45,027 nucleotides of DNA from Sulfuricurvum sp. (GTDB lineage: Bacteria; Campylobacterota; Campylobacteria; Campylobacterales; Sulfurimonadaceae). The stretch's first letter is position 1. The number at the start of each line of letters is the position of its first letter. The DNA lies in the NCBI GenBank assembly GCA_030696285.1, contig JAUYSQ010000190.1, positions 1 to 45,027 on the forward strand, given 5' to 3'. A program made the translations under genes and the position numbers. Below the pieces are notes generated by a model. The model had not been told where the DNA came from. It saw only the letters and a program-made list of their open reading frames with translations, and did not search any database. This document shows positions 7,327-25,678 of the stretch, one piece after another.

Positions 7327-8133
7327 ATGAAAAGTAAAATAGTAGTCCAAGAACAAGAAATTACAATTATTGAAGATGACTATATATCATTAACCGACAT
7401 GGTAAAAAATATTGACAATGGTCTTGTTCTGATTGAAAAATGGCTTAGAAATAAAAATACGATAGAGTTTATTGGCATTTGGGAAGAAATTTATAATCGT
7501 AATTTTAATTCCCCCGAATTCGAGGGGATTAAAAATGAAGCTGGCTTAAATAGATTTTCTTTATCCGTAAAAATGTGGATATCAAAAACAAATGCGATAG
7601 GGATAATAGCCAAAGCTGGAAGATACGGTGGCACGTATGCACACAAGGACATAGCTTTTGAGTTTGCAAGCTGGATAAGTCCAAAATTCAAACTGTTTCT
7701 TATCAAAGAGTTTCAAAGACTTAAAAATGATGATATAGAAAAGCAAAAGCTCGGATGGGATATCAAACGAACCATAGTAAAGATGAACTATCATATCCAT
7801 ACGGATGCCATAAAAAACAATCTAATTCCGCCAAATATTGCAAAAAATAAGATAAATTTCATATATGCCAGCGAAGCAGATCTTTTAAACCTAGCGTTAT
7901 TTGGCACTACTGCCAAACAATGGCAAGATGAAAATTTAGATAAAAAAGGAAATATGAGAGATTATGCAACAGTAGAACAATTGGTGGTTCTAGCAAATCT
8001 TGAAAGCCTAAATGCAGAGTTTATAAAACAGCAGCTTTTACCAAAACAAAGAGTTGAACGATTAAATGAAATAGCCATAGAGCAATTAGAAATAATGTTA
8101 AGCTACAGCAAAAAGCTCAAGGGTAACGAATGA
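7327..8133 (+). CDS. KilA-N domain protein inside the polysaccharide operon
   Basis: This 268-residue protein starts at the ATG at 7327, which has AAGGA seven bases upstream; a longer frame from 7255 would overlap the acyltransferase gene. Residues about 15-130 look like a KilA-N domain: DDYISLTDMVKN, an IEFIGIWEEIYN segment, and the conserved AGRYGGTYAHKDIAFEFASW followed by FKLFLIKEFQRLK. The C-terminal part (FGTTAKQWQ... EQLVVLANLESLNAEFI) is common to bacterial KilA-N proteins. The domain is known from phages and large DNA viruses and is thought to bind nucleic acid; the function here is unknown. Composition is rich in Lys, Asn and Ile, and the DNA is more AT-rich than its neighbours. Its stop overlaps the next glycosyltransferase start (ATGA). 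Confidence 0.88.
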   Translation: MKSKIVVQEQEITIIEDDYISLTDMVKNIDNGLVLIEKWLRNKNTIEFIGIWEEIYNRNFNSPEFEGIKNEAGLNRFSLSVKMWISKTNAIGIIAKAGRYGGTYAHKDIAFEFASWISPKFKLFLIKEFQRLKNDDIEKQKLGWDIKRTIVKMNYHIHTDAIKNNLIPPNIAKNKINFIYASEADLLNLALFGTTAKQWQDENLDKKGNMRDYATVEQLVVLANLESLNAEFIKQQLLPKQRVERLNEIAIEQLEIMLSYSKKLKGNE

Positions 8134-19072: not shown

Positions 19073-19513
19073 TTAACTTTTACCTTTGAGAAGCTTAAAA
19101 ATACCATTCTGATTATTTTCTGCATTATTATTGGTCAATGAATTTCCAGGTGCCTCCTGATCTCCATTGCCCCATCCATTATTCCCTTTATTATCTACCA
19201 GATCTTTTTCGTGTCCGCCGTGCGTATCCACACCAACATTATTTACTTTGTTTTTAGCATTCTTGCTTGATGTGGTGTCGTTTTCTGCGCCGTTATGGTT
19301 CAATGAGTTTCCAGGTGCATTCTGATCACCATTACCAAATCCATTGTTCCCTTTGGATGCTTTTAACGTAGAATTACCTGGTGCTTTAGAATCACCTTTG
19401 AGCGAAGCATAAGCATTTAAAGAACCCAACATCATAATGGCAGGAGCCATATAAACTGATTTTTTTAGAAATCCGCGTCTACTTTCAACAGTAATATTCT
19501 GTTCATTTTTCAT
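19073..19513 (-). CDS. Small exported Asn/Gly-rich repeat protein with Tat-type leader
   Basis: A 146-residue protein of no family known to me. Residues 11-36 form a twin-arginine-type leader: SRRGFLKK, a hydrophobic core, and AYAS as a likely cleavage site. The body contains two 26-residue repeats at residues 54-79 and 109-134, sharing the core GNNGxGNGDQxAPGNSL, and a third APGNS at 44-48. The body is strongly hydrophilic with no cysteine. The leader closely matches that of the protein at 21896-22264. It has its own promoter. I infer that it is exported and possibly modified by the kinase/PqqD/nucleotidyltransferase set upstream; nothing in the sequence proves this. Confidence 0.8.
   Translation of the reverse strand: MKNEQNITVESRRGFLKKSVYMAPAIMMLGSLNAYASLKGDSKAPGNSTLKASKGNNGFGNGDQNAPGNSLNHNGAENDTTSSKNAKNKVNNVGVDTHGGHEKDLVDNKGNNGWGNGDQEAPGNSLTNNNAENNQNGIFKLLKGKS
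19112..19189 (-). repeat. Coding repeat, copy 2 (26 residues)
   Basis: This encodes residues 109-134 of the repeat protein (GNNGWGNGDQEAPGNSL core, then NNNAENN). It is a diverged direct repeat of 19277-19354, with starts 165 bases apart. Confidence 0.85.
19277..19354 (-). repeat. Coding repeat, copy 1 (26 residues)
   Basis: This encodes residues 54-79 of the repeat protein (GNNGFGNGDQNAPGNSL core, then NHNGAEND). Most differences from the other copy at protein level are conservative, so the motif appears to be under selection rather than freshly duplicated. Confidence 0.85.
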
Positions 19514-19581: not shown

Positions 19582-20754
19582 TTATTTTAATCTAAGAATA
19601 TTAAGCTTAAAGAGTCGATACAATCGAATCAGATAATAAAGAGGCGATAAGAAATTCGGTAAATTGACCATATAGACATCCAATTCTTTGATCTGGAAAA
19701 GGGTGAGTAGATAATGGCGTAACCATCCATTGGACTCATCTTTCATAAGCAAGATCTTATTGAGATTTTCCAGGGAAACCAACCCCGTTTGCTCATTTTG
19801 AATCGTATCGTTTTTTATTTCTAACAGTATCGCTTCTTTGGCTTTTAGTACTGCAGAATCCGATTTTATATGAGACACTATAGTTTCTTTCAATGGCGTA
19901 TTGAAGAGATCATAACTAACAGCCAATCCCAAATAAACCATAAACTCTATTTCCATGTCGTGTGCCATTTTACTTAACACATTCCAGTCGATCACGTCTG
20001 CATGAAGTCTGATCAATCGATCAATATCTACAATCCACTCTAATCTTTCCCAATAGTGCTTTGATCCATGCAGTAGCAGATAGAGTAAAAGTGCCCCAAG
20101 TTCCAATGTTTCAACAGAAGCATTATTGATCATGCAACTGTAATTTAAGTCGCTAAACAAATTGATGTCACTCTTTTTGATATGACGATCTAAAAACAGC
20201 TTCCAGTGAAATTCGATCAAAACATTGTTTTTAGTATGGGTCGTTGGAAAATCTTTTCCAACACTTAACAAAGTATTATTTTTTAGAAATGCTATCGAAT
20301 ATTGCGATTCATATCCTATGCTCGTTAACAACTCCAGAGATTTATACATGTCCGATTTTTCAACTAAAAGATCCACATCTGAAAATTGACGTTGCGTGAT
20401 ATCACCATGGATGATTTGAGATAGAACAGGGCCTTTTATCGCTAGAGCACGAATACCATTTTCATCTAGTAGCTTGATAACCTTGAGCATCTCAGCTGTC
20501 ATCATCATATTTCTGCTGGCTATTTCAAGGTTAGTGATTTTGAGGCGATTTTTGATGGTTTCATCAACCGCTGCGAGTGGCTTGAGCGCTTTGTGCGCCA
20601 AAGGAAAGACCCCATGCATATAAGCAGAATTTAGAAATCTGTCCCAATCATCGATCTGGGCTACAAGGGATTCCAGCTTGAGGGGATCAGATTTAAACTG
20701 ACAACACTCAATCAATAAATCATAGAGTGCTTTATGCTCATACTTTGGTTTCAA
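19582..20754 (-). CDS. Nucleotidyltransferase family protein (NTP_transf_5 type)
   Basis: A 390-residue protein of the large nucleotidyltransferase superfamily branch often seen beside peptide-modification genes. The active-site region is ALAIKGPVLSQIIHGD (about residues 104-118) followed by RQFSDVDLLVEK with the metal-binding Asp pair at 126 and 128. The remainder is helical (LLYLLLHGSKHYWERLEWIVD). By family it would transfer a nucleotide or a related group; the substrate is unknown. Its start overlaps the pqqD-like gene by 17 bases, so it is the last gene of the four-gene run beginning at 22264. Confidence 0.82.
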   Translation of the reverse strand: MKPKYEHKALYDLLIECCQFKSDPLKLESLVAQIDDWDRFLNSAYMHGVFPLAHKALKPLAAVDETIKNRLKITNLEIASRNMMMTAEMLKVIKLLDENGIRALAIKGPVLSQIIHGDITQRQFSDVDLLVEKSDMYKSLELLTSIGYESQYSIAFLKNNTLLSVGKDFPTTHTKNNVLIEFHWKLFLDRHIKKSDINLFSDLNYSCMINNASVETLELGALLLYLLLHGSKHYWERLEWIVDIDRLIRLHADVIDWNVLSKMAHDMEIEFMVYLGLAVSYDLFNTPLKETIVSHIKSDSAVLKAKEAILLEIKNDTIQNEQTGLVSLENLNKILLMKDESNGWLRHYLLTLFQIKELDVYMVNLPNFLSPLYYLIRLYRLFKLNILRLK

Positions 20755-21019
20755 AACTCAACAATCCTTGCTCAGCGAGCGTATTGGCAAAAGCGATGAT
20801 GTCATTACTCAAGACGCTATTGTCTACTTCGAATAACTCAACCATTTCATCAAAGATTTCTTGCAAACTGTGTGATTTACTCATCATCTCCCACATCACA
20901 GCCCCCATCTCATTCAAAGCAAAAAAGAGCTCATTGGAACTGTTAAAAAGTAAGGTTTCATCATCAATGCATTGTAATAATACAGTGCTAGGTATCGTAT
21001 AGCGGCTCTCAAGATTCAT
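20738..21019 (-). CDS. PqqD-like peptide-binding protein
   Basis: A 93-residue protein with the PqqD fold pattern: RYTIPSTVLLQCIDDE, then LLFNSSNELFFALNEMGAVMW near residue 40, SLQEIFDEMVELFEVD and a final FANTLAEQGLL helix. PqqD-like domains bind the leader of a precursor peptide (the RiPP recognition element). In this position, two bases after the HprK-like gene and overlapping the nucleotidyltransferase gene, it is the expected adaptor between enzymes and a leader-bearing substrate. The protein partner is inferred. Confidence 0.85.
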   Translation of the reverse strand: MNLESRYTIPSTVLLQCIDDETLLFNSSNELFFALNEMGAVMWEMMSKSHSLQEIFDEMVELFEVDNSVLSNDIIAFANTLAEQGLLSFETKV

Positions 21020-21021
21020 CT

Positions 21022-21888
21022 TTACCCTTGTAATTGAAGCGTATGATTTGTAATCACAGTATACACTTCTTTCAGTCGTTCTAAGTCATGTGGGACCGTT
21101 ATCGCAAATACATTAACGCGATTTGCCAATCCTGCAAGATACGAAACATATTGAGGCGTAAAAAAGCTGAAATTCATCTCCCCACCCTCATGCAATCGGC
21201 TAAATTTCTCAATACCCTTGAGCGTTCTAATAGTGATCTGCGCATCGGGTGCTGATTTTTCGAGTATATAGATCGCATGGATAGGGTGTATCTGCGTTGA
21301 GGGATTTTCACATAAATGTCCAAGCACTTCTACGGTACGAAAGGGACGATGATAGGGATGTGCAGGGACAGCATAATAAACACCCTCACGCTCAAATGTA
21401 GCCATCTTGTCATCCGTAATAAGGGGATGCCCACGCTGTATAAAATAATCTGTAAGTGTTGATTTTCCTCCGTGTGAGGGTGCCATAAAAAGAACCGATT
21501 TATCCTCGATCTCAACCGCTCCGGCATGCAGAAATTTATAGACTTCTCCTATGGAGAAATAAATGGGAAGAACAATATGATACAGCCAAAATCGAAAAAT
21601 ATCTTCGGTCGCTTCTGCTAAGAATCGATAAGAGATTTTTCCACTCTGGGTTTCCCACATAAATTCAATCGTATCTTCAACTTGGAAAAACCATTTTTGA
21701 CCGATTTCAGGTTTATCAAATACTCTATCGGTTGCCAAAGTAACATTTTTCTCTTGGTTGTTTTGATACACTTGTATATTAAAGCATGTTGAGGAGTCTA
21801 TAAAGTCTGAAGGAGATATTTTGATTGTATTGGGTGTATGCTCATCTTGCAACTCATTACTGAATGCAAGATGATAGCCATAAATCAT
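21022..21888 (-). CDS. HprK-like serine kinase (HprK-related kinase A type)
   Basis: A 288-residue protein from the ATG at 21888. Its central part matches the HPr kinase/PEPCK P-loop fold: FLHAGAVEIEDKSVLFMAPS, then HGGKST with the Walker A Lys at residue 142, and GHPLITDDKM with the Asp pair at 159-160. Homologues act in peptide-modification clusters; in lasso peptide clusters, related kinases phosphorylate the precursor. The start is uncertain: ATG 21888 lies seven bases after the upstream stop but lacks a clear binding site, and in-frame starts to 22008 would overlap the upstream gene. It lies between a leader-bearing small protein and a PqqD-like gene. Confidence 0.85.
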   Translation of the reverse strand: MIYGYHLAFSNELQDEHTPNTIKISPSDFIDSSTCFNIQVYQNNQEKNVTLATDRVFDKPEIGQKWFFQVEDTIEFMWETQSGKISYRFLAEATEDIFRFWLYHIVLPIYFSIGEVYKFLHAGAVEIEDKSVLFMAPSHGGKSTLTDYFIQRGHPLITDDKMATFEREGVYYAVPAHPYHRPFRTVEVLGHLCENPSTQIHPIHAIYILEKSAPDAQITIRTLKGIEKFSRLHEGGEMNFSFFTPQYVSYLAGLANRVNVFAITVPHDLERLKEVYTVITNHTLQLQG

Positions 21889-21895
21889 TGAAGGT

Positions 21896-22264
21896 TTAGA
21901 CGCCGAAATATTTAGTGGCGCCGCCAAACAAACTGTTGACCCAAGCCCACGTTCCATTACCAGCATCAGCATATGCTTTAACTTTTGCCCCAGATAGACT
22001 TTTTGCATCCTCTGGAAAGAGAAGTGGTTGTGGTGTATCTGTACCAGACATTACAATGTTTGTTCCATCTTTAGTAGTGACAGTCTGAGTGCTTGCTATT
22101 ACACTTGGATTGTTTTGATCTACTGTATTGTGAGTAAACGTACTCGCTTGTGCGCTGCTTGGAAGGGTCAAAGAACCCAATACTACTACAGCAGGTGCTA
22201 CATACGCTACTTTTTTCAAGAAACTTCTACGAGCTTCAACATTGTCAATTTGAACATTTTCCAT
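21896..22264 (-). CDS. Small exported protein with Tat-type leader, candidate substrate
   Basis: A 122-residue protein starting at ATG 22264, with AGAGG seven bases upstream. The leader has ARRSFLKK, then the hydrophobic stretch VAYVAPAVVVLGSL and a likely cleavage near SSAQAS (residues 38-43). The mature part of about 80 residues is rich in Thr and Ser (NNPSVIASTQTVTTKDG) and ends in GGATKYFGV; no cysteine is present. I know no family for the body. The gene is first in a run with the HprK-like, PqqD-like and nucleotidyltransferase genes, as a precursor would be. Confidence 0.8.
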   Translation of the reverse strand: MENVQIDNVEARRSFLKKVAYVAPAVVVLGSLTLPSSAQASTFTHNTVDQNNPSVIASTQTVTTKDGTNIVMSGTDTPQPLLFPEDAKSLSGAKVKAYADAGNGTWAWVNSLFGGATKYFGV

Positions 22265-22507: not shown

Positions 22508-24805
22508 TTATTTTCTGAGCCATGGCCTGATCTTTTTGAGTTCAAGTCCATTTAGGATTAGTCCTACATTATGCAACTGGTGTTCATGCACGAATCGATT
22601 AGTACTTTTGATAAAATCCTTCTTCGAATACGCTGCTTTGAATACAATCAAATTCAGATCTGACAATCGCATCAAGACCAAAGCGTCCGCAACCAAACCG
22701 GCAGGCGGTGACTCCAAGATAATATAATCATAAAGCCCTCTAAGCTCATCAAGCAATGTTGTAAGTCGCTGGGAAATGATCAATTCATATGGATTTGCAG
22801 GAGTGGGACCGGCAACAACGACATCCAAATGAGAATTCACTTTTCGGACAACGTTTTCAAATGTATTCGCCCCCAAAAGAAGACTGCTCATCCCTAGTTC
22901 ATTGGTAATCGCAAGTTTTTTATTGACTCTGGATGCACGCATATCCAAATCCAAAACAACGACTTTTTTACCGCTTTTACTGATGATTTGAGCTAATTCA
23001 AGTGCTGTTGTCGTGCGACCCTCACCCTTTACCGAAGAAGTAATTGCAATAATCTTTGGTCTCTCTTCCATAAATTGAAGTCTTGTCAGTAAAACACGCA
23101 GTGCATCTTCGTACAATGATTTTTTCTCTGTAAAGAGAGGGAGAACACTGTAAAGAGGTAGGTGTGTATGCTTTTCAAGATCCCCGATCGTCTGAATCGT
23201 ATTGGCCATAAAGTGTCGTACAAATGCTTGGAGCACTCCAATAATCAATCCAATGATTAAACCCATCATCACTATTAAGGCACGATTAGGCTGCACAGCA
23301 GGTCCATTTACAAGCGCATCATCAATGATACGCATACCAGAAACGGTAGAGGACTCTATGATTGCTGTCTCAGCTCTTTTTTGGAGAAGAAATTTATAGA
23401 TTTCTTCATTGACCATAAAGCTGCGGTTTAGCTGCGTAAGCTGTCTTTCCTCTTCCGGAAGTTTTTCAAATGATCCTGTATGCTTATTAATAATCTCCTG
23501 CAGTGAGCTTTTTCGCTGTTTTAATCCACGTAAGCTGCTCTCAAGTGTCCCCTGCAAGTCCGATTTCAATGATGCCAGCTGATCATTAACTTTCATCACC
23601 GAAGGATGTTTTGGTGTATAATCAACCAAAAGTGAACTGTGAAGAGTATTGAGTTCCTGAATTTTTTGGATCAACGAAATAACCGGTTCACTTGCCCCAC
23701 TTAAATCAATCCCTCGTATCTCTTTATTGTTTTTAATAAATGCGAGCATGTTTTCTAACATGCTTTGCTGCATCTCCAGCTCATACATTTGAGCTTCATA
23801 TTTACTCAATTCACTAGCTACAATACCTGCTTTGCTACCTAGTTCAATGACTACATGCGATGATTTGTAATCTTTTAAATTTATCGCTGATTTTTGAAGT
23901 CCTTCATTGACAGCAGCAAGCTGTTCATCAATAAAGCCCAATGTCTTTTCAGCACTCGCACTTTTGATTTTTATATTTTGTCTTTCATATGCATCTGCAA
24001 TCGCATTCAAAACATCTTGCGCACGTTGTGGAACATTATCTTGATAACTCAATGTTAAAATCGACCCCTTGTCTGCAGCCGTTGCAATGCTCAATGAAGA
24101 CTGTATCATCGTATACATCATCTCATCTGGTGTAACCGTAAATGCGTAGCTGCCCGTCCCCATATTAGCTATTTGAGTAACCTTTAGCTTGAATAAGGGG
24201 TGAGTAATGATACTGCCATATGAAAAAACACCCTCAAAGGTAGTTGATTTTATCATTGCAGCAGCACTGTCTGAGCCAAAGAAAGCGGTGACCTTCATTC
24301 CAAACGTCGGTTTCAGCATAAGCCGAAAATGTCCTGCATCCACAGGCTGAAGCTGGAATTCGTACCCAATCAGTTTTTCACCGATCCCATATGCCTGAAC
24401 AATAAAAGGCGCTTGCTTATACAGTTCAACCGATTTAAATCCTGCAGTTGAGTAATAACGCGTACCCACCTGAACTTTTTCCAACACTTTTTTCGCAATA
24501 AATCGGGATTTAAATATTGCAATTTCATTACCAAGATTGCTTCCCTGTGTTCCTAGGGCAGCAGCCATAAAATCACCAGGTCCCTGGCTCGCAGCATCTT
24601 GGATTTGAAGTGTCAAATCTGCCTGATAAATATCAGTTTTGGAAGATGCGATAAATATACTCAGCAATAGTATCCCTAACGTGACACCGATCATCGACTT
24701 TTTATAGCGCAACAGTGATGCTATAATCTCTTTAAGGTCGATCTCTTCTTCCGGAAGATTGGGCATTGTGGATCCCATGTTTTGGTTACTTAAATAAGAC
24801 GACAT
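22508..24805 (-). CDS. Wzc-like polysaccharide co-polymerase with degenerate BY-kinase domain
   Basis: A 765-residue protein. The Wzz part starts with EEEIDLKEIIASLLRYKK and a membrane segment at about 38-54. A long coiled-coil periplasmic region follows (about 280-480), then a second membrane segment at 509-529 and a cytoplasmic kinase-like domain from about 550. The Walker A region is SSVKGEGRTT with Arg at 597 where Lys is expected. Walker A' is intact (VVVLDLDMR, 615-623). Walker B reads YIILESPP with Glu at 698 instead of Asp. The usual C-terminal tyrosine cluster is absent. It probably controls chain length and export with the Wza-like protein, perhaps without kinase activity. ATG 24805 is preferred (AAGG six bases upstream); it overlaps the upstream gene by 20 bases. 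Confidence 0.88.
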   Translation of the reverse strand: MSSYLSNQNMGSTMPNLPEEEIDLKEIIASLLRYKKSMIGVTLGILLLSIFIASSKTDIYQADLTLQIQDAASQGPGDFMAAALGTQGSNLGNEIAIFKSRFIAKKVLEKVQVGTRYYSTAGFKSVELYKQAPFIVQAYGIGEKLIGYEFQLQPVDAGHFRLMLKPTFGMKVTAFFGSDSAAAMIKSTTFEGVFSYGSIITHPLFKLKVTQIANMGTGSYAFTVTPDEMMYTMIQSSLSIATAADKGSILTLSYQDNVPQRAQDVLNAIADAYERQNIKIKSASAEKTLGFIDEQLAAVNEGLQKSAINLKDYKSSHVVIELGSKAGIVASELSKYEAQMYELEMQQSMLENMLAFIKNNKEIRGIDLSGASEPVISLIQKIQELNTLHSSLLVDYTPKHPSVMKVNDQLASLKSDLQGTLESSLRGLKQRKSSLQEIINKHTGSFEKLPEEERQLTQLNRSFMVNEEIYKFLLQKRAETAIIESSTVSGMRIIDDALVNGPAVQPNRALIVMMGLIIGLIIGVLQAFVRHFMANTIQTIGDLEKHTHLPLYSVLPLFTEKKSLYEDALRVLLTRLQFMEERPKIIAITSSVKGEGRTTTALELAQIISKSGKKVVVLDLDMRASRVNKKLAITNELGMSSLLLGANTFENVVRKVNSHLDVVVAGPTPANPYELIISQRLTTLLDELRGLYDYIILESPPAGLVADALVLMRLSDLNLIVFKAAYSKKDFIKSTNRFVHEHQLHNVGLILNGLELKKIRPWLRK

Positions 24806-25604
24806 CGACAGCCTTTCCATTCTTGAGTGAAATAGCGCTTAGGAAAGGGCTCATCATAGTTGTGATCATATTGAAAAACGGTAGCTGTTCAGCAAAGGCG
24901 ACATTATATGCTTTCATAGCACGCGGCTGCACGTAAATAATATCGTTTGGCTGCAAGATGAGACTCGTTAATGTCATTTGAGACATATCTGCCAAATTGA
25001 TCTCACGTACCTGTGGATTACGCAGTCCTCCACGTATTACACGTACATTTGTCCGCTCTGCATCAACCGTCAAATCACCAGACTTGGCAAGTGCTTCAAA
25101 AAGGTTCATCGTTCCGTTGGGCACCTGAACAACACCTGGGCCTTTGACCTCACCTAGCACAAAAAGTCTTTGGTTCAAGATTTTTACACTCACATATGGA
25201 CTTCTTAAATACTGCTTGTACAGTGTTGAAAGCTTCTCGGCTGCCTGATTCTCTGTAAGCCCCATAATCTCAACCGCACCGATCAAAGGAAGACGTATCA
25301 AGCCATTGTTCGCAATCAAATACCCCTCGGTACCATCACGTACCAAGGTCTGCTGCCCTCCTCGACTCAGCATTTGATTCAATTGCTGATCACCTTCACT
25401 AGAGGTTAGGTTCGCAATGTTAACTTCTACTCTATCCCCTTTGATAATTTTCCATTCAAATTCAACCTCTTCGCTATAATTCGCATCCGATACGGTAATC
25501 GTTTTAATCAACCCTCCGCTGTTTCCAAACATTTTAAATGATTGAGTTGAACATCCGCTAAACAGGACCCCAATAGCAGTAATAAACAACATTGAATATC
25601 TCAT
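24786..25604 (-). CDS. Wza-like outer-membrane polysaccharide export lipoprotein
   Basis: A 272-residue protein of the outer-membrane polysaccharide export (OPX) family. From the ATG at 25604, six bases after AAGGG, it begins with a lipoprotein signal ending LFSGC, putting the lipidated Cys at residue 18. The export domain is around GDRVEVNIANL to YLRSPYVSVKILNQ, and the SLBB-type part follows (RLFVLGEVKGPGVVQVPNG, NLFEALAKSGDLT). It forms the export channel partner of the Wzc-like protein encoded immediately downstream. It is shorter than E. coli Wza (about 380 residues). Confidence 0.9.
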   Translation of the reverse strand: MRYSMLFITAIGVLFSGCSTQSFKMFGNSGGLIKTITVSDANYSEEVEFEWKIIKGDRVEVNIANLTSSEGDQQLNQMLSRGGQQTLVRDGTEGYLIANNGLIRLPLIGAVEIMGLTENQAAEKLSTLYKQYLRSPYVSVKILNQRLFVLGEVKGPGVVQVPNGTMNLFEALAKSGDLTVDAERTNVRVIRGGLRNPQVREINLADMSQMTLTSLILQPNDIIYVQPRAMKAYNVAFAEQLPFFNMITTMMSPFLSAISLKNGKAVDVVLFK

Positions 25605-25678
25605 ATCTACCCTTTTATACTTAATAATAATATCTTTATCAGAAGTGTAAAATATCACCTGATTTAACAAAAAAATTT

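Follow-up and report, generated by a model that had tools for sequence, protein, structure and literature searches.

We describe a compact set of genes from Sulfuricurvum sp. (contig JAUYSQ010000190.1; "the window" below is the whole analysed stretch of 45,027 nucleotides), which we read, with a probability of roughly 0.7, as a pathway resembling those of ribosomally synthesized and post-translationally modified peptides (RiPPs). Its products would be linear, probably phosphorylated, exported proteins, whose leader would act both as a tag for a RiPP recognition element (RRE) and as a signal for twin-arginine translocation (Tat). The set consists of the following genes:

21896-22264, minus strand: precursor protein 1 (SML), 122 residues, ATG start; residues 1-40 form the leader and 41-122 a variable body; an open reading frame (ORF) with homologues at the same place in congeners.
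21022-21888, minus strand: HprK-like peptide kinase, 288 residues, ATG start; supported by PDB profiles, a fold match and invariant active-site residues.
20738-21019, minus strand: PqqD-like discrete RRE, 93 residues; PF05402 and PDB profile matches.
19582-20754, minus strand: NTP_transf_5 nucleotidyltransferase, 390 residues, TTG start; PF14907.
19073-19513, minus strand: precursor protein 2 (SML2), 146 residues; leader type as in SML, with a different body.

An earlier, sequence-only reading of this DNA had reported four tightly packed minus-strand genes, which the coordinates bear out: 7 bases separate the SML gene from the kinase gene and 2 bases separate the latter from the PqqD-like gene, which the nucleotidyltransferase gene overlaps by 17 bases. 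That reading missed SML2 as a fifth member, the YxxPxL motif, and, as the nearest described system, the linear polyphosphorylated peptides (LPPs) of Bacillota.

Both small proteins start with a common leader, RRxFLKKxxYxAPxLxxLGxL..AxA, with 51% identity between SML2 and SML across 39 residues. Three elements can be placed on the SML leader:

22211-22231, minus strand: Tat motif RRSFLKK, SML residues 12-18; the leader alone scores over the TIGR01409 cut-off, and RR and K17 are invariant in 19 leaders.
22175-22204, minus strand: putative RRE docking motif YVAPAVVVLG, SML residues 21-30; pattern YxxPx[LVI]xxxG.
22145-22153, minus strand: predicted signal peptidase I site AQA, residues 38-40, followed by Ser41; AxA-S is invariant in four aligned precursors of the window's class of loci (see below).

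The Tat-type leader of the sequence-only reading held up: against a cut-off of 16.7 bits, TIGR01409 gives 19.1 bits for the leader alone, 17.6 in a genome scan and 16.5, just under, for the whole protein. The second signature, YxxPxL, is the RRE motif documented for lasso and LPP precursors (PMC10368454, PMC13381572). All 45 collected leaders carry [YW]xxPx[LIVMFA]xxx[GS], set 8 or 9 residues away from the two arginines, a count that is partly circular because the leaders were picked by a profile, built from 19 leaders, that includes some of them. Independent of that selection are a shuffle of the leader region, which yields the motif 0.2 times on average versus 45 in the real sequences, and a control of 18 ordinary Tat-like N-termini (14 of the 16 in one listing, whose other two entries, from L049 and the window, are not Tat proteins, together with L130, L136, L138 and L139), in none of which this motif occurs. 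A pattern search also detected the motif in putative precursors encoded at lasso loci that have the kinase, such as YHAPCLKRIGRINTVTKGG (L093) and YVSPQLMDMGSLVKVTMGG (L085). Since the leader fits the Tat model, usually ends in AxA and carries a YxxPxL-type motif, it bears the signatures of both functions in one sequence. We found no description of a RiPP leader doubling as a Tat signal in the open-licence literature, most subscription papers and preprints lying outside the search; two papers that touch on both twin-arginine and RiPP leaders deal, judged by title and abstract, with lanthipeptides, displayed on phage or studied in B. subtilis.

Our reading could hold without a functional Tat step, the precursor staying inside the cell or leaving it otherwise and RRxFLKK being just a part of the docking site. 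The fixed Tyr, Pro and Gly within the h-region are indeed unusual for Tat signals, and the cores of 8-20 residues found at some loci (see below) would be odd as Tat cargo. However, the window leader exceeds the TIGR01409 cut-off, 13 of 19 leaders match this model at a loose E limit, AxA stands at the expected place at the end of most leaders, and there is no exporter in the window set, nor an MsbA-like one among the ORFs around it (ORFs read by eye, no ATP-binding cassette (ABC) model run), so that we consider a pathway without Tat improbable.

The partner that would recognize the docking motif is the PqqD-like protein, which, judged by profile comparison, is a discrete RRE of lasso B1-like type. 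It passes PF05402 (49.4 bits versus 23.4), and its family profile matches, in the PDB, the lasso RREs TbiB1 (1e-19) and TfuB1 (3e-11) as well as entries 9x90 and 9x8z, which we infer to be PbaB1 and LppB respectively, as a single offset of 18 puts their residues on G42/Q79 and N33/D70 of the paper (PMC13381572). In LppB, N33 and D70 hold the Pro and Tyr of YxxP, N33A nearly abolishing binding and D70A weakening it (PMC13381572), and the window RRE has Asn36 and Asp73 at these positions. The RRE would thus be expected to bind both small proteins through YxxPx(V/I)xxxG of their leaders, with Tyr21 and Pro24 as the key residues in SML.

The kinase, as modelled, is an HprK-fold protein with an intact active site. 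PDB profiles match it to HPr kinases (E 3e-6), which are also the best fold matches (E 9e-8) of its AlphaFold model (predicted local distance difference test, pLDDT, 89). The P-loop APSHGGKST is present, with GGKST invariant in homologues and the DD after the P-loop also conserved, while H121, K142, D159 and D160 are invariant in two family alignments. The spacing of this H-K-DD arrangement (21 and 17 residues) equals that of H148, K169 and D186-D187 in the lasso precursor kinase BsfK, in which H148, G163, K169, S170 and both Asp residues matter for catalysis (PMC9266682, PMC10368454); the window kinase family has an invariant Ala (Ala136) where BsfK has G163. The nearest relatives of the kinase are in public records named Sulfuricurvum and in genomes placed in the window's own genus, and no relatives were found on plasmids or viral contigs at the limits used.

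To see whether leader and kinase belong together we turn to a comparison set of 150 relatives. Strong leader matches (24, with E < 1e-10, the next match following at 2e-5 after a gap of five orders of magnitude) occur in 16 of the 150 genomes and the kinase likewise in 16, with 13 genomes common to both (Fisher p 1.6e-13, ignoring kinship); 19 of the 24 leader matches lie within ~4 kb of a kinase. The remaining three kinase genomes (G050, G081, G115) lack a leader and have lasso clusters with B2 and cyclase at the kinase, and two leader genomes without a kinase match (G067, G090) are 80-89% complete, with the leader on a contig of < 5 kb. Homologous clusters consistently without a leader gene, which the sequence-only reading had named as evidence that would speak against it, were not found other than among lasso clusters. 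Its proposal that the small leader protein would be the substrate, and would then be exported, is strongly backed by this co-occurrence and by the docking motif.

The surroundings of the gene set on the window include two further features:

22508-24820, minus strand: Wzc-type chain-length/tyrosine kinase protein (PF02706, PF13807, PF13614); context, outside the modification set.
24786-25670: wza, upstream of the gene set, beyond wzc.

On the far side of the set from these lie genes for WecG, an acyltransferase and a glycosyltransferase, and the set is placed between wza/wzc and other polysaccharide genes. The order wza-wzc-small-kinase-PqqD-nucleotidyltransferase-small2 is retained in two congeners (L021, L022), implying that the packing did not arise by chance, and wzc neighbours the kinase locus in congener loci L021-L023 and in L037. 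Elsewhere in the polysaccharide locus, at 7330-8133 of the window, a KilA-N domain protein (PF04383, E 4.9e-25) is encoded amid glycosyltransferase and acetyltransferase genes, an unusual neighbour there, possibly of mobile or phage origin.

Leader loci fall into two classes. Loci of the window's class (Sulfuricurvum, with similar loci in Arcobacter-like records) have wzc nearby, usually include the nucleotidyltransferase and tend towards longer bodies. In the second class, for the most part from Sulfurovum and Helicobacteraceae records, the leader gene adjoins a ~750-residue P-domain/lectin-domain protein and a putative lipoprotein; the bodies are mostly 8-20 residues long, with a high content of Pro, Gly and Trp (FGKPPSGPTWS, NSVPGPPVWG, DGSVPPPPPPW), and kinase and usually PqqD are present, the nucleotidyltransferase as a rule missing. 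Short-tail leader genes were seen at L027:4775-4972, L029:8435-8614, L094, L100, L102, L104, L107 and L108. In one genus of the window's family (L028, L030, L034), the leader gene is divergent from the kinase-PqqD-nucleotidyltransferase operon and not co-directional with it.

These two settings bear on the alternative that SML and SML2 are ordinary surface proteins of the polysaccharide locus, exported by Tat, while kinase, PqqD-like protein and nucleotidyltransferase just share the locus and act on some other target (Wzc, for example, or a polysaccharide enzyme or a precursor since lost). The leader is sound as a Tat signal, wzc is a conserved neighbour in the window's class, and genome G013 contains an orphan leader gene with no kinase match in the genome, all of which would suit such proteins. 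Yet the leader-kinase link also holds in the second, wzc-free context beside P-domain proteins, and an RRE docking motif inside a Tat signal would be left unexplained, and we consider this alternative unlikely. We regard the G013 gene as a stray or decayed copy. Its neighbours at L145:6718-6942 are a transposase-like ORF and one resembling a DNA methylase.

The same kinase family also occurs in lasso clusters. Of 74 distinct kinases, a leader lies within 4.5 kb of 33, lasso genes alone accompany 27, and neither was seen with 14, several of which are at contig ends. On the kinase tree the Tat label changes 14 times versus 23.7 when shuffled: Tat-leader and lasso kinases cluster but do not form one clade each, implying either more than one change of partner in the family or the repeated loss of one partner. 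Kinase-bearing lasso clusters were seen at L024, L025, L026, L071, L075, L080, L081, L083, L086, L087, L090, L093, L095-L097, L114 and L128, most of them from Campylobacterota records and a few from metagenome-assembled genomes of other proteobacteria; at L024-L026 an Asn-synthetase-like cyclase adjoins the kinase. In a Sulfurovum record (L099:1-8153), a Tat-leader gene and kinase stand directly before a lasso cluster (ABC, B2, a second kinase, cyclase), so that a Tat-leader kinase and a lasso kinase lie within 8 kb.

The lasso link drawn by the sequence-only reading was a good lead. Another alternative is that the window holds a decayed lasso cluster that lost B2 and the cyclase while keeping kinase, RRE and nucleotidyltransferase. 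By tree path, the closest kinases from outside the genus belong to lasso clusters, and the RRE is lasso B1-like. Against decay, all frames are open and active sites intact; congeners retain the arrangement, which is also seen, with a leader type of its own, in separate clades of the kinase tree. The lasso protease and Asn synthetase are missing, as had been noted before: B2 (PF13471) is absent from the whole window genome, and no Asn-synthetase-like cyclase occurs in the window set. We considered a decayed lasso cluster and rejected it as very improbable.

The nucleotidyltransferase belongs to PF14907 (E 3.5e-51), with R122, D126 and D128 invariant in nine homologues; its DxD pair (D126/D128), like the kinase P-loop, had been reported from the sequence alone, and both are present and conserved. 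A sequence search found no PDB match. For the lasso peptide pseudomycoidin, hexose addition to phospho-Ser requires PsmN, annotated as a nucleotidyltransferase of the cluster (PMC9266682, PMC10368454), and LppN was without activity in the host tried (PMC13381572).

For the SML body, AlphaFold gives no confident fold (pLDDT 39.7; shallow alignment of only four sequences), as would be expected of a peptide-like substrate, although this is no proof of one. The SML2 body repeats GNGDQxAPGNS..HNxAEN, a pattern found in 4 of the 150 relatives, each time in a leader-bearing protein at a kinase locus; bodies of this type are those at 19073-19513 of the window and at L021, L022 and L030. Both BsfK and LppK phosphorylate core Ser3, and BsfK is stimulated by the RRE (PMC9266682, PMC10368454, PMC13381572). 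In our collection, Ser is among the first three residues past the predicted cut in 26 of 41 cores versus 11.2 expected, and Ser or Thr is at position 3 in 11 of 24 short cores versus 3.1 expected (near-copies removed, related sequences otherwise equally weighted, cut sites assigned by rule); in four aligned precursors of the window's class, an invariant Ser directly follows AxA (Ser41 in the window). This enrichment is no more than suggestive of an acceptor near the predicted cut. Core Ser3 as a universal acceptor is not claimed, as it is enriched but not general.

Several observations weigh against our reading, in addition to the orphan leader gene of G013. Leader and kinase are on different contigs in G142 and G095, and among 30 Tat-leader loci, 8 have no PqqD match within 6 kb and 18 no nucleotidyltransferase within 4.5 kb, some of them being cut by contig ends. 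Alignment of the leader profile with the local lasso precursor profile by hhalign covers exactly the motif stretch (P 1.1e-4), but with a probability of just 56% and with lasso precursors themselves chosen by motif pattern; the NCBIfam lasso-leader models NF033521 and NF033528 match leaders below cut-off, NF033521 missing the window leader. No single acceptor residue is conserved over all bodies, and the Ser enrichment may in part reflect signal peptidase preference.

The gene set, its motifs and active-site residues, and the leader-kinase association are read from sequence; RRE binding, phosphorylation, the nucleotidyltransferase reaction, Tat export, the order of steps and the role are proposed, the steps after docking by analogy with the described relatives. 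Once docked through its leader, the precursor would be phosphorylated by the HprK-like kinase, aided by the RRE, on a body Ser (or Thr) residue that most likely lies near the body start. The PF14907 enzyme would then add a further group, a sugar or a nucleotide on the phosphate, by analogy with PsmN. Export of the modified protein would use the housekeeping Tat translocon, and signal peptidase I would trim the leader at AxA, the predicted cut in SML being at AQA; the product would then function on the cell surface or within the exopolysaccharide layer. TatC and LepB are both present in the window genome, from which a SipW/archaeal-type signal peptidase (TIGR02228) is absent. With a leader that is docking tag and export signal at once, a dedicated protease or pump would be unneeded. 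We lean, if only slightly, towards the broader proposal of a new RiPP family in Campylobacterota, in which one N-terminus is RRE leader and Tat signal, coupling cytoplasmic modification to Tat export and housekeeping cleavage, with phosphorylated or phospho-glycosylated surface proteins as products of one branch and Pro/Trp-rich peptides of 8-20 residues as those of another.

How does this gene set compare with known systems? The sequence-only reading had pointed to the NCBIfam HPr-rel-A system, which likewise pairs an HPr-kinase-related protein (TIGR04352) with a PqqD-family partner (TIGR04353). The broad enzyme types are alike and both models match weakly, but the kinase scores 23.3 bits against a cut-off of 200 and the PqqD-like protein 17 against 35, and other PqqD models score better; we rejected membership, which is scarcely credible with both scores so far under the curated cut-offs. 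Even the best NCBIfam match of the kinase, SynChlorMet ScmC (TIGR04249), with its PqqD-like partner ScmD (TIGR04248), stays at 28.6 versus 125 and 31.1 versus 100 bits. On HPr-rel-A, and on HprK with PqqD, nucleotidyltransferase and exopolysaccharide, nothing was found in the open-licence literature.

Phosphorylated lasso peptide pathways (paeninodin PadeK, pseudomycoidin PsmK/PsmN, Bradymonas BsfK; PMC9266682, PMC10368454) share the kinase H-K-DD spacing, a discrete RRE (B1), a nucleotidyltransferase and a YxxPxL leader, whereas the window set lacks the B2 protease and the Asn-synthetase-like cyclase, and its precursor has a Tat motif and AxA in place of the lasso T-x-G junction and macrolactam ring residues. 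One kinase family would serve lasso and Tat-leader precursors, sometimes on one contig (L099), a co-location that echoes that of LPPs and paeninodins in Bacillota.

Closest are the LPPs themselves (PMC13381572), whose clusters have an HprK-like kinase, a discrete RRE and an NTP transferase (LppN), polyphosphorylation of core Ser3, 1-3 precursors of 35-200 residues with a conserved N-terminus containing YxxP and a variable C-terminus, conserved RRE residues N33/D70 and no macrolactam cyclase, and lie in capsule or polysaccharide loci. That no role had been assigned to such a system, as the sequence-only reading stated, still holds, but a sister system is by now published. LPPs differ in having the archaeal-type signal peptidase LppS and the MsbA-like exporter LppD (PMC13381572), neither seen here, and in their leader YxxPxVLxHQxIxFETxxS, whose wider part (VLxHQxIxFETxxS) is not seen here, where a Tat signal and AxA stand instead. 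We do not file the window set as LPP, since a test for an LPP-type signal peptidase was negative and we saw no transporter among its genes; by analogy, its mode of action would be like that of LPP and phosphorylated lasso pathways, with membership in LPP, lasso or HPr-rel-A not assigned. LPPs and paeninodins were stated in 2026 to be restricted to Bacillota (PMC13381572). If our reading is true, phospho-RiPPs of LPP type extend to Gram-negative Campylobacterota, with a leader that doubles as enzyme-docking tag and export signal, and the set offers a direct way to test the function of such phosphate-bearing peptides in polysaccharide loci, a point that the LPP authors did not settle. The window set is best read as a Gram-negative counterpart of the Bacillota LPPs, in which a Tat leader would replace the LPPs' own peptidase and exporter.

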